Shown: one piece after another, positions 37,781-41,588 of the stretch
How positions within the stretch are numbered: position 1 is the stretch's first letter
Layout of the letters: each line of letters begins with the position of its first letter
DNA from: Erysipelotrichaceae bacterium
GTDB taxonomy: Bacteria > Bacillota_I > Bacilli_A > Erysipelotrichales > Coprobacillaceae
Assembly: GCA_021201315.1 (NCBI GenBank)
Contig: JAJQFG010000097.1
Span: forward strand, 1 to 49,473
DNA length: 49,473 nucleotides
Direction: 5' to 3'
Program-made: the position numbers and the translations under genes
The notes under the pieces: model-generated
Seen by the model: only the letters and a program-made list of their open reading frames with translations
Databases searched by the model: none
What the model was told of the DNA's origin: nothing

Positions 37781-37809
37781 TTGTGAATATTTATTAAGAA
37801 TGTTATAAT
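37781..37809 (+). promoter_or_regulatory. Promoter of the pyruvate formate-lyase operon
   Basis: TTGTGA (37781-37786) and TATAAT (37804-37809) are separated by 17 bases, 32 bases before the start codon. TTGTGAA also resembles half of a Rex (NADH-sensing) operator, but the other half is not convincing. Confidence 0.75.
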
Positions 37810-37840: not shown

Positions 37841-39907
37841 ATGACATTTAAAGTAAAATGGAATGATGCTTGGGATGGTTTCCAAGCAGGAAAATGGAAT
37901 AAAGATGTTAATTTAAGAGATTTTATTCAATTAAATTATACTCCTTATGATGGAGACGATTCATTCTTGGCAGGTCCTACACAAAACACAAAAGATTTAT
38001 GGGATCAGGTTATGGATTTAACTAGACAAGAAAGAGAAGCTGGTGGTGTTTTAGACATGGATACAAAAGTTGTATCTACATTAACTTCTCATGATGCTGG
38101 TTATTTAGATAGATCAAAAGAAAAGATTGTTGGTTTCCAAACTGATAAACCTTTCAAGAGATCTTTACAACCTTTTGGTGGTATTCGTATTGCTGAACAA
38201 GCTTGTGAAACTAATGGTTATAAGGTGGATCCAGAAATTTCTTATATTTTTAGAGAATATAGAAAAACTCATAACCAAGGTGTATTTGATGTTTATACAC
38301 CAGAAATTAGAGCTTGTCGTTCATCTCATGTTATTACTGGTTTACCTGATGGATATGGTAGAGGACGTATTATTGGAGATTATCGTAGAGTAGCTTTATA
38401 TGGTGTTGATTTATTAATTGAAGATAAGAAGAATCAATTAGCTACTACACAAAAGAGAATGACTTCTAGTGTTATTCGTTTAAGAGAAGAATTATCTGAA
38501 CAAATTAGAGCTTTAGGTGAATTAAAAGAAATGGGCTTTAAGTATGGTTTCGATATTTCTAAACCTGCTAAAGACTGTAAAGAAGCTATTCAATGGACAT
38601 ACTTTGGTTATTTGGGTGCTGTAAAGGAACAAAACGGGGCAGCAATGTCATTGGGTAGAACTTCTACATTTATTGATATTTATGTAGAAAGAGATTTAGC
38701 TAATGGTAAATATACTGAAGAAGAAGTTCAAGAATTTATTGATCATTTCATTATGAAGTTAAGATTAGTAAAATTCGCAAGAACTCCAGAATATAATTCA
38801 ATCTTCGCTGGTGACCCTACTTGGGTAACTGAATCAATCGGTGGTGTTGGTGTTGATGGTCGTCATATGGTTACTAAGACTTCATATAGATATTTACATA
38901 CACTATCTAACTTAGGAACTGCACCAGAACCAAATATGACAGTATTGTGGTCTACAAGATTACCTGCTAACTTTAAAGCGTTCTGTGCTAAGACTTCAAT
39001 TGAAACTTCATCAATTCAATATGAAAATGATGATTTAATGCGTGTTACTCATGGTGATGATTATGCCATTGCATGTTGTGTATCATCAATGCGTGTTGGT
39101 AAGGAAATGCAATTCTTCGGTGCTCGTGCTAACTTAGCTAAGTGCTTATTGTATGCTATCAATGGTGGTGTTGATGAAAAATCTAAGAAACAAGTTGGAC
39201 CTAAATATCGTCCGGTTGTTGGTGATTACTTAGATTATGATGATGTTATTGAAAAATATACTGATATGATGGCTTGGCTTGCTGGTGTTTATGTAAATGC
39301 TTTAAATATTATCCATTATATGCATGATAAATATGCTTATGAAAGAATCCAAATGGCTTTACATGATAGAGAAGTTAAACGTTACTTCGCTACTGGTATT
39401 GCTGGTTTATCAGTTGTAACAGACTCATTATCAGCTATTAAGTATGCTAAAGTTAAATGTATTAGAGATGATGATGGTGTTGTTGTTGATTATGAAGTAG
39501 AAGGAGATTTCCCTAAATATGGTAACGATGATGATCGTGCTGATGAAATCGCTCAATGGTTGGTTGAAACATTCATGGATATGGTTCGTTCTCATCATAC
39601 TTATAGAGATTCTATTCCTACAACTTCTATCTTAACAATTACTTCTAATGTTGTTTATGGTAAAGCAACAGGAAGTACTCCTGATGGTAGAAAAGGTGGA
39701 GAACCATTTGCTCCAGGTGCTAACCCAATGCACGGTAGAGATACTCATGGTGCTATTTCTTCATTATCATCAGTTGCTAAGTTACCATTCAAAGATGCTC
39801 AAGATGGTATTTCTAATACATTCACAATCATTCCTAATGCTTTAGGTAAGGATGATGCTGTATTTGCTGGTGATTTAGATATTGAATCTATCAAAGAAGG
39901 TAATTAG
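37841..39907 (+). CDS. Pyruvate formate-lyase catalytic chain lacking the glycyl radical domain
   Basis: A 688-residue protein matching pyruvate formate-lyase (PflB, about 760 residues in E. coli), which splits pyruvate with CoA into acetyl-CoA and formate under anaerobic conditions. The two active cysteines are Cys412-Cys413 in A-I-A-C-C-V-S-S-M. Homology runs to P-N-A-L-G-K-D-D near residue 670. Then, after a short acidic tail, the chain stops. The last 70 residues of normal PflB, including the radical Gly (Gly734 in E. coli), are absent and are encoded by the gene at 40146. It starts after CAGGGGG and heads the operon. The enzyme should therefore work only with the separate radical subunit. 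Confidence 0.94.
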
Positions 39908-39923: not shown

Positions 39924-40130
39924 ATGGCTACTCAAAAAGAAATTGAAGAGTTAGTTAAAATGTTAGATGGTCATATGAGCTCTGGTTCAGGACATATTAA
40001 TGTTAAAGTGAATGAAGATGCTCAAATTGAAATGGAGGACGTTACTGTTGTGTCAAAGATGGATTGTGATAGTGGTGATACTGCTTGTAAGATTCCAAAT
40101 TTACCAATGGATGACGATGATGAATATTAG
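39924..40130 (+). CDS. Radical-domain-like small protein without the radical glycine
   Basis: A 68-residue protein between the catalytic chain and the radical subunit. Residues 6-30 (I-E-E-L-V-K-M-L-D-G-H and G-H-I-N-V-K-V-N) align with the start of the glycyl radical domain ([11 protein letters not shown] and H-L-N-V-N-V-L-N). The R-V-S-G-Y-A-V radical loop is missing; instead the C-terminal half is acidic, holds Cys48 and Cys55 and ends in four Asp and a Glu. Spacing is 16 bases from pflB and 15 to the radical subunit, each with its own ribosome binding site. It looks like a duplicated, diverged radical-domain fragment. A role as placeholder, chaperone or regulator is inference; no known family is recognised. 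Confidence 0.8.
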   Translation: MATQKEIEELVKMLDGHMSSGSGHINVKVNEDAQIEMEDVTVVSKMDCDSGDTACKIPNLPMDDDDEY

Positions 40131-40145
40131 TAAAGGAGAATAATT

Positions 40146-40385
40146 ATGGCTAGTGAACAACAAGTTGAAAATTTAGTTGGTATGTTAGATGCTTATGCTG
40201 AAAAAGGTGGACATCATTTAAATGTTAATGTATTAAATAGAGATACTTTATTAGATGCTCAAAAACATCCTGAAAAATATCCTCAATTAACAATTCGTGT
40301 TTCTGGATATGCTGTTAACTTTGTAAAACTTACAAAGGAACAGCAAGACGATGTTATTTCACGTACATTCCACGAATCTTTATAA
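40146..40385 (+). CDS. Separate glycyl radical subunit of pyruvate formate-lyase (GrcA-like)
   Basis: A 79-residue protein that corresponds to the last part of PflB. It contains [15 protein letters not shown] near residue 24, P-E-K-Y-P-Q-L-T-I near residue 42, and the radical loop R-V-S-G-Y-A-V-N-F with Gly54 as the radical site, ending in [13 protein letters not shown]. In E. coli the related YfiD/GrcA is a spare part that rescues oxygen-cut PflB. Here the main chain has no radical domain of its own, so this subunit must be the only source. AAAGGAG precedes the start. Activation by PflA is expected. Confidence 0.95.
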
Positions 40386-40391
40386 AAATTT

Positions 40392-40414
40392 AGGAGACAT
40401 TTAAATTGTCTCCT
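40392..40414 (+). terminator. Hairpin after the radical subunit gene
   Basis: AGGAGACA and TGTCTCCT pair around seven bases, followed by only three T residues. It is a weak terminator or mRNA stabiliser that may lower expression of the downstream genes relative to the enzyme subunits. Confidence 0.55.
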
Positions 40415-40457: not shown

Positions 40458-40757
40458 ATGAAAATCTTATTATGTTGTGTTGCTGGAGTTACTTCTACAT
40501 TATTTGCTTCAAAATTAAAAGATGCAGGTTCTCGTAAAACTAAAGATTTAAATGTATGGTCTGCATCAGAACATGCAGTTGAATATTCTGCTGATTTAGC
40601 TGATGTTATCTTAATTGAACCACAATTAAGAAGTGCTTATGATAGAATTGCTGCTGCATATCCTGATAAAATTGTTAAAGTTGTTAATGAAGAAGATTTT
40701 GTTAACTTTAATGCAATCAAGATTTTTAATGATATCTGGGAAGAATATAATAAATAA
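40458..40757 (+). CDS. Stand-alone PTS IIB-like protein (lactose/cellobiose type)
   Basis: A 99-residue protein with the fold pattern of phosphotransferase IIB subunits of the lactose/cellobiose family. It opens M-K-I-L-L-C-C-V-A-G-V-T-S-T, in which Cys7 takes the place of the phosphocysteine of cellobiose IIB (C-x-x-G-x-S-T). No IIA or IIC gene is near, so sugar transport by itself is unlikely. It lies between the pfl subunits and pflA, which suggests a link to that enzyme system, for example sensing PTS or phosphoenolpyruvate status. That is inference. GAGGAGG precedes the start. Confidence 0.82.
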   Translation: MKILLCCVAGVTSTLFASKLKDAGSRKTKDLNVWSASEHAVEYSADLADVILIEPQLRSAYDRIAAAYPDKIVKVVNEEDFVNFNAIKIFNDIWEEYNK

Positions 40758-40838: not shown

Positions 40839-41588
40839 ATGGAAGGTTATATTCATTCAACAGAAAGTTGTGGAACAGTTGATGGACCAGGTATAAGATT
40901 TGTAGTTTTCTTCCAAGGATGTCCAATGCGTTGCTTGTATTGTCATAATCCTGATACATGGCAACCTCATGTTGGTGAAACCATGAGTGTGGATGATATT
41001 TTAAAAATGTTTAATTCAAAGAAAGAATTTTATAAAAATGGTGGGATTACATGCACTGGTGGAGAACCACTCTTACAAATAGACTTTTTAACAGAATTAT
41101 TTGAAACATGTCATCATCAAGGCATTCATACTTGTTTAGATACTTCGGGTATTACTTTTAATGAAAATCCTGATTATTTAAAGAAGATGGATAGATTATT
41201 AGCCGTTACAGACTTAGTTATGTTGGATATCAAACATATTGATCCTATAGAACATGTAAAACTTACTAGTCAACCTAATGATATGATATTAAAATTTGCT
41301 CATTATATTGATGATAAAGGTGTTGAAATATGGATAAGACATGTCGTTGTACCAACGATTACCCAAAATGATACATATTTATATCGATTAGGCGAATTTA
41401 TCGCTACATTAAAACATCTTAAAGCATTAGATGTATTACCATATCATACAATGGGTAAAGTTAAATATGATAATTTAGGCTACGATTATCCACTAAAAGA
41501 TATAGAGCCGCTAAGCAAAGAAGATGCCATTAAAGCGAGAGATGTGATACTAAAAGGAATGAAAGATGCATTGCGTAAACATGAATAA
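40839..41588 (+). CDS. Pyruvate formate-lyase activating enzyme
   Basis: PflA, 249 residues, a radical SAM protein that abstracts a hydrogen from the radical Gly of pyruvate formate-lyase. The cluster-binding motif is C28-P-M-R-C32-L-Y-C35-H-N, and the SAM-binding G-G-E-P motif follows near residue 77. Length matches E. coli PflA (246). ATG 40839 follows AAAGGTGG; an upstream ATG at 40809 lies in the terminator. Its target here should be Gly54 of the separate 79-residue subunit. The 3' end overlaps the next gene by 23 bases. Confidence 0.96.
   Translation: MEGYIHSTESCGTVDGPGIRFVVFFQGCPMRCLYCHNPDTWQPHVGETMSVDDILKMFNSKKEFYKNGGITCTGGEPLLQIDFLTELFETCHHQGIHTCLDTSGITFNENPDYLKKMDRLLAVTDLVMLDIKHIDPIEHVKLTSQPNDMILKFAHYIDDKGVEIWIRHVVVPTITQNDTYLYRLGEFIATLKHLKALDVLPYHTMGKVKYDNLGYDYPLKDIEPLSKEDAIKARDVILKGMKDALRKHE

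Follow-up and report, generated by a model that had tools for sequence, protein, structure and literature searches.

Pyruvate formate-lyase (PFL) is a textbook example of an oxygen-sensitive radical enzyme, and in the gut it feeds formate and acetyl-CoA fermentation. In the window, by which we mean the whole stretch of 49,473 nucleotides analysed here, this enzyme is encoded in separate pieces, and the locus raises the question of what a third, very small protein is doing among them. The catalytic chain of 688 amino acids (37841..39907, + strand; TIGR01255, 1129 bits, profile positions 1-665 of 744) carries the active-site pair Cys412-Cys413 and ends just past the ALGKD motif, with a C-terminal tail free of cysteine. 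The stand-alone radical domain of 79 amino acids (40146..40385, + strand; GrcA3, NF038360, 167 bits, cut-off 158) contains the motif RVSGYAV with the radical Gly54 and is also without cysteine. Exactly where an earlier note had placed it, between these two halves, lies an open reading frame with an ATG start and a TAG stop (39924..40130, + strand), separated from the catalytic-chain gene by 16 nt and from the radical-domain gene by 15 nt, whose 68-residue product is called P68 below. The earlier note had seen in it a mimic of the radical domain that lacks the radical glycine, and had offered three ideas for its function, namely a plug, an assembly factor or a redox switch.

The frame has homologues, and comparison with eight relatives gives dN/dS values of 0.07-0.34 (one pair, being saturated, yields no value), with codon changes that fall mostly at third codon positions; for these reasons it is not a chance frame and, to judge from this substitution pattern, it is a real gene under purifying selection. 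Across 17 diverse members of the family the invariant residues are Leu14, Asp15, Gly21, His24, Cys55 and Pro58; the conserved residues of the first half (LD, G, H, N) are those held in common with the radical domain, and those of the second half form a cysteine motif. Upstream of the operon lies a promoter-like site (TTGTGA, 17 nt, TATAAT, with TG before the second hexamer; 37781..37809, + strand); the consensus scan found 18 such sites against 21.6 expected by chance, and it is by its position only that this one is of interest. A palindromic hairpin (AGGAGACATTTAAATTGTCTCCT) follows 3' of the radical-domain gene at 40392..40414, where scan and sequence identify it (listed on the - strand, with no strand assigned). 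The gene for the PFL activating enzyme PflA, a radical SAM protein (40839..41588, + strand), adjoins the split enzyme in most loci. In the window it is preceded by a gene for a PTS-IIB-like protein of 99 amino acids (40458..40757, + strand), a family name given from appearance only; this gene comes next after the split PFL in two genera, one of them the window's, and lies several kilobases away from it in other genera (L029, L034).

The resemblance of P68 to its downstream neighbour concerns its beginning. The start of P68 aligns with the start of the radical-domain protein at a BLOSUM62 score of 77, against a shuffle mean of 23.1 (sd 4.4, maximum 50; 2000 shuffles), and a profile of the P68 family matches the neighbouring radical-domain gene over positions 1-32 (E = 2.9e-7), which bears out the earlier observation that the first 30 residues match. 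In E. coli PflB numbering, the first half of P68 corresponds to 686-710, the helix and strand ahead of the radical loop; the match of the window's catalytic chain ends at 681, and GrcA3 spans 680-760. The part that copies the helix and strand opening the radical domain, residues 4-31 (39933..40016, + strand), is referred to here as the docking half. The radical loop did not come with it, and the missing glycine is a property of the whole family: the SGYA motif occurs in none of the P68 homologues, as against 115 of the 115 distinct radical-domain (GrcA3) proteins collected. Against NF038360 itself ("autonomous glycyl radical cofactor GrcA3", a name used by no paper found in the open-licence literature), P68 scores 20.8 bits over profile positions 2-30 only, far from the cut-off of 158, and its relatives score 12-17 bits. 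P68 thus shares with GrcA3 the first 30 residues, including, as a sequence match only, the N-terminal helix and HxNVxV strand, and it shares its genomic place; unlike GrcA3, it has no radical glycine and bears a cysteine tail. Beyond the start of GrcA3, it resembles nothing in Pfam, NCBIfam or PDB, and no Pfam or NCBIfam family covers it. Pfam matches to Pol_BBD and BMFP fell below the cut-off and were attributed to chance, as were PDB profile matches to arrestin and others. The AlphaFold2 model of P68 alone (pLDDT 53.6) has a helix at 4-19 and a tail without structure, and is too weak as evidence; that of the three pieces as one chain, with stops read through, is unusable (pLDDT 38.8), the alignment being shallow and its short rows misplaced by MAFFT.

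The second half of P68 ends in a cysteine tail (residues 46-68, MDCDSGDTACKIPNLPMDDDDEY; 40059..40127, + strand), with Cys48 encoded at 40065-40067 and Cys55 at 40086-40088. The acidic tail with two cysteines described in the earlier note is a family trait: Cys55 is invariant, the position of Cys48 shifts by a few residues, and the median charge after residue 28 is -7. All 62 distinct homologues have at least two tail cysteines within C-x(0-6)-C, and the motif [AC]CxxP[TN] is present in 62/62 of these separate proteins, against 23/36 of the tails collected from catalytic chains, which are described below. Between the last two tail cysteines there are six residues in 55 of the 62 proteins, within a range of 0-6, and at least three tail cysteines occur in 43/62; the P68 of the window has only two, most others having two or three. 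Radical-domain proteins contain cysteine in 5 of 115 cases, mostly in doubtful N-terminal extensions.

The P68 family reaches far wider than the window's operon. Among 295 genomes of the window's order, full-length P68 was found in 29 (the window's own included), all of them among the 53 with a stand-alone radical domain, and it was absent from the genomes with unsplit PFL; these counts were made by hand from tables, with full-length meaning a match beyond about position 49 and stand-alone an open frame under 115 aa. Within the genus g11, P68 is present in three species with split PFL and in none of three with unsplit PFL. In a sample of 250 Lachnospiraceae genomes (the family of the Lachnospiraceae-like genome G060), also counted by hand and with stand-alone here meaning an open frame of at most about 160 aa, 65 have P68, 96 a stand-alone radical domain and 64 both; the genome with P68 and no stand-alone radical domain (G303) contains no PFL that could be found at all. 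In the phylum sample the family is rare, 11 of 392 genomes lying above threshold, one of them through its radical domain only. A profile search confirmed what the earlier note had expected, that homologues lie beside split pfl genes, with the exception of three Lachnospiraceae genomes in which the P68 gene is far from PFL and a split PFL is present elsewhere in the genome. The outcome that the earlier note had named as fatal, homologues scattered at random or absent beside the same split, did not arise in the general sense, with the reservation that about a third of the genomes with split PFL have no separate P68.

Outside one group of Erysipelotrichales, nearly all of these genomes have instead a cysteine tail fused to the catalytic chain. 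In 32 of 32 Lachnospiraceae genomes with a stand-alone radical domain and no P68, the C-terminus of the catalytic chain is a short tail containing two or more cysteines, in a pattern C-x(0-6)-C that is usually followed by xxP (for example, ...DLDCSNGACASPTLFEGLDVE, ...RIEECGNQACNIPNIMESIDNE and ...DCACCEPNANLDEE). Separate P68 proteins end alike (e.g., ...GCTDCSRTPLACSVPTLHQGLDDY; in the window, ...MDCDSGDTACKIPNLPMDDDDEY), and the catalytic chains accompanied by P68 end without cysteines in the loci checked, about 30 of them from Lachnospiraceae. As far as sequences can tell, the tail comes in one of two ways, fused in cis to the catalytic chain or carried by P68: of the distinct split loci, 57 have P68 only, 37 a fused tail only, 1 both and 15 neither, and Fisher's exact test of P68 against the fused tail, which ignores ancestry, gives 5e-16. 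The 15 loci with neither belong to one part of the Erysipelotrichales and one more distant genome, and their chains mostly end a few residues from ALGKD. The 36 fused tails collected were chosen by having at least two cysteines, so that a pair in 36/36 follows from the selection; 25 of the 36 have only two. A quick tree built from the catalytic chain requires 6 changes between the two forms, of which just 1 independent pair lies on strongly supported branches, and repeated swapping of the tail between cis and trans forms appears likely, though it is not proved. One unsplit PFL of 766 aa with a GrcA3-like C-terminus (L191, 524-2824) has the segment CGCEEVTC in the linker that joins its core to the radical domain, so that these cysteines sit at the radical-domain hinge; this protein may be a refusion or an intermediate. 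Another unsplit PFL, of 745 aa and from the window's order (L111, 950-3187), has a radical domain that scores close to GrcA3 and no cysteine segment, and may show the state before the split. No partner cysteine specific to the tail-bearing enzymes was found in the catalytic chain, the cysteine columns being present also in unsplit or tail-less enzymes.

There is good support for P68 as a third component of split PFL, conserved and hitherto undescribed, whose functional core is the cysteine tail. From the persistence of this tail where the mimic half is missing, we infer that the tail is the working part and that the mimic half is most simply a tether. The reading that we prefer, at a probability of roughly 0.4, is that P68 is a third subunit in which the mimic half serves as this tether and the tail as a dithiol arm that keeps the active-site cysteines reduced. 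The docking half would copy the helix and strand that seat the radical domain on the catalytic chain, and the tether would put the cysteine tail where the radical domain attaches. Whenever the separate radical domain does not occupy its groove, either ahead of activation or following damage by oxygen, the arm could then reach the exposed active site or groove of the catalytic chain, keep the active-site cysteines (Cys412/Cys413 in the window) in the reduced state or return them to it, and be re-reduced in turn by a cellular thiol system. Unlike that of ribonucleotide reductase (RNR), PFL turnover needs no external dithiol; as it consumes no thiols, the arm would be of use in maintenance or recovery and not in every catalytic cycle.

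This dithiol arm is favoured by the co-occurrence of P68 with split PFL, by the interchange of the cysteine tail between cis and trans, by the cysteines at the radical-domain hinge of the unsplit L191, and by the invariant Cys55 with its ever-present second tail cysteine beside a radical-domain protein that almost never has one. The stretch copied by the docking half also overlaps an element needed for the binding of YfiD in E. coli (PMC8683613). Several points count against it, however. Turnover can do without a dithiol from outside; the cysteine spacing is variable and three or more tail cysteines are frequent, which would suit metal binding too; one Erysipelotrichales group has split PFL without any cysteine tail, so that the tail is not needed by every split enzyme; the cis/trans interchange is only partly independent of ancestry; a tail-specific partner cysteine did not turn up in the catalytic chain; and both docking and redox activity are predictions from sequence. 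Among the three ideas of the earlier note, the redox switch nevertheless gains most, as the cysteine tail persists without the mimic half, and it is a redox function that we would infer for the cysteine pair.

The nearest parallels to such an arm come from the RNRs. PFL and RNR have a common barrel fold and a cysteine radical, and RNRs re-reduce their active site via two cysteines at a flexible acidic terminus, which belongs either to the catalytic chain or to a small subunit of its own. The class I enzyme of E. coli, NrdA, has the C-terminus DDGCESGACKI with Cys754 and Cys759, a flexible acidic end with a cysteine pair like that of P68 (DCDSGDTACKIP); the motif is short, however, and the likeness probably convergent, and in P68 PNL and an acidic end come after it. 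The split class II RNR of P. aeruginosa has a small separate subunit, NrdJb, through which the catalytic NrdJa undergoes thiol-disulfide exchange (PMC4520616; see also PMC5704485). Like P68, NrdJb is encoded beside the catalytic chain and brings a cysteine pair to a radical enzyme that elsewhere carries it C-terminally (PMC4520616), but the enzyme is a different one, PFL has no need of a dithiol in turnover, and the likeness is by analogy. Two features of the RNR type are found in P68, the pair lying near the C-terminus in 62/62 separate proteins and being placed on a separate subunit (57 loci), on the catalytic chain (37) or on both (1). No RNR family or structure appears among the Pfam, NCBIfam and PDB matches of P68, and such support as NrdA and NrdJb may lend to the dithiol arm is that of a motif analogy. 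We would put forward more tentatively the wider proposal that gut Lachnospiraceae and Erysipelotrichales possess a PFL variant in which a cysteine-pair arm, in cis or on a mimic subunit, would maintain the active-site thiols in an RNR-like manner.

The alternative that survives best concerns assembly and activation, and has its model in E. coli, where oxygen cleaves PFL at the radical glycine. The stump left behind must then have its residues 696-733 if the spare domain YfiD is to bind and become activated, their loss resulting in 32-fold lower YfiD activation and no measurable binding (PMC8683613). YfiD (GrcA) with this stump is like P68 and its partners in having the PFL radical domain on a separate chain, and the docking half matches the segment that is duplicated between YfiD and cleaved PFL; unlike in the YfiD system, the split is here a genomic one, and the part of mimic falls to a third protein that has a cysteine tail and no radical loop. 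P68 could be a permanent counterpart of the stump that docks, recruits the radical domain and aids the activase in installing the radical, its tail contacting the radical domain or the activase. The alignment of the docking half to PflB 686-710, overlapping the 696-733 element, argues for this, as do the position of the P68 gene between the two chains to be joined and that of the activase gene, next in most loci. The assembly factor of the earlier note is strengthened by this precedent, but the genomes with fused tails are without the docking half, which is therefore not the conserved requirement, and genomes with neither P68 nor a fused tail also have the split enzyme. We consider this alternative doubtful, though worth keeping in sight.

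The number and spacing of the tail cysteines lead to another possibility, that they often form CxxC-x6-C sites for zinc, iron or an Fe-S cluster, with a stabilising or regulatory effect on the complex. The 43 of 62 proteins with at least three tail cysteines and the 55 of 62 with six residues between the last two are in keeping with this, and small Fe-S subunits are known in other glycyl radical enzymes. Those of benzylsuccinate synthase and 4-hydroxyphenylacetate decarboxylase are, like P68, small cysteine-bearing subunits of such enzymes, and they are folded Fe-S proteins; P68 has no sequence match to them in Pfam, NCBIfam or PDB. Moreover, two cysteines are all that the window's protein and 25 of 36 fused tails possess, the spacing varies from 0 to 6, and P68 does not provide four cysteine ligands per cluster within one chain. 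A metal or Fe-S site seems rather unlikely to us.

Less likely still, the cysteine pair might act as a radical quencher or sacrificial oxygen shield: upon displacement of the separate domain or the arrival of oxygen, it would pass a hydrogen atom to the glycyl radical and so switch it off ahead of any cleavage of the chain. Chemically, a dithiol next to a glycyl radical would be a reasonable source of hydrogen, and there is a strong association between the cysteine tail and dissociable radical domains; against this, such cysteines are present in the unsplit PFL L191 as well, and absent from some split enzymes. Both rivals, metal binding and radical quenching, are to be taken seriously, and the number of cysteines (two or three) and their spacing (0-6) do not decide. 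The plug of the earlier note, a mimic half that fills the radical-domain groove under oxygen and shields the active site, has lost weight and is now improbable: the docking half does copy the segment by which the radical domain is seated, without the radical loop, and docking in the groove is still plausible, but in 37 distinct loci the tail is present on the catalytic chain without the mimic half, and a plug is thus not the common denominator. That P68, a partial duplicate of the radical domain, is a decaying, non-functional remnant of the gene split is ruled out by its dN/dS, its full-length conservation across two bacterial groups and its invariant Cys55.

In gut bacteria of two large groups, PFL is therefore often a multi-part enzyme and has a conserved cysteine tail described in none of the family databases and papers searched. 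The remark in the earlier note that no protein of this design had been described agrees with the searches of Pfam, NCBIfam, PDB and the literature, in which no paper on P68 was found for split PFL with a radical domain, Erysipelotrichaceae or Lachnospiraceae; the papers covered were those under open licence, so that a description elsewhere is possible. Reconstitution of such a PFL with two genes alone would leave out one of its parts. Should the tail prove to be a dithiol arm, it would open a direct, testable way of learning how anaerobes shield a glycyl radical enzyme or set it going again, along with the RNR parallel, and it would amount to an RNR-like reductase arm in a glycyl radical enzyme thought to need none.

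Some further observations concern the other parts of the enzyme. In one genome (G004; L022, 3-1498) the catalytic chain is broken into two frames, by sequencing error or decay, with the P68 gene and radical domain downstream intact. A related split-PFL catalytic chain (L252; G587:C1:93779-95812) contains five in-frame TGA codons, as where TGA is read as an amino acid. No viral homologues of P68 were found, and P68 was not seen on the gut and rumen viral contigs L192-L202, several of them 110-333 kb long, which encode stand-alone GrcA3-like radical domains 75-83% identical to that of the window. Further entries of the viral collection (L203-L240) contain YfiD-like radical domains, of 120-124 aa in three examples. 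On one of the gut and rumen contigs (L196), a catalytic PFL chain of 680 aa lies directly upstream of the GrcA3-like radical domain.
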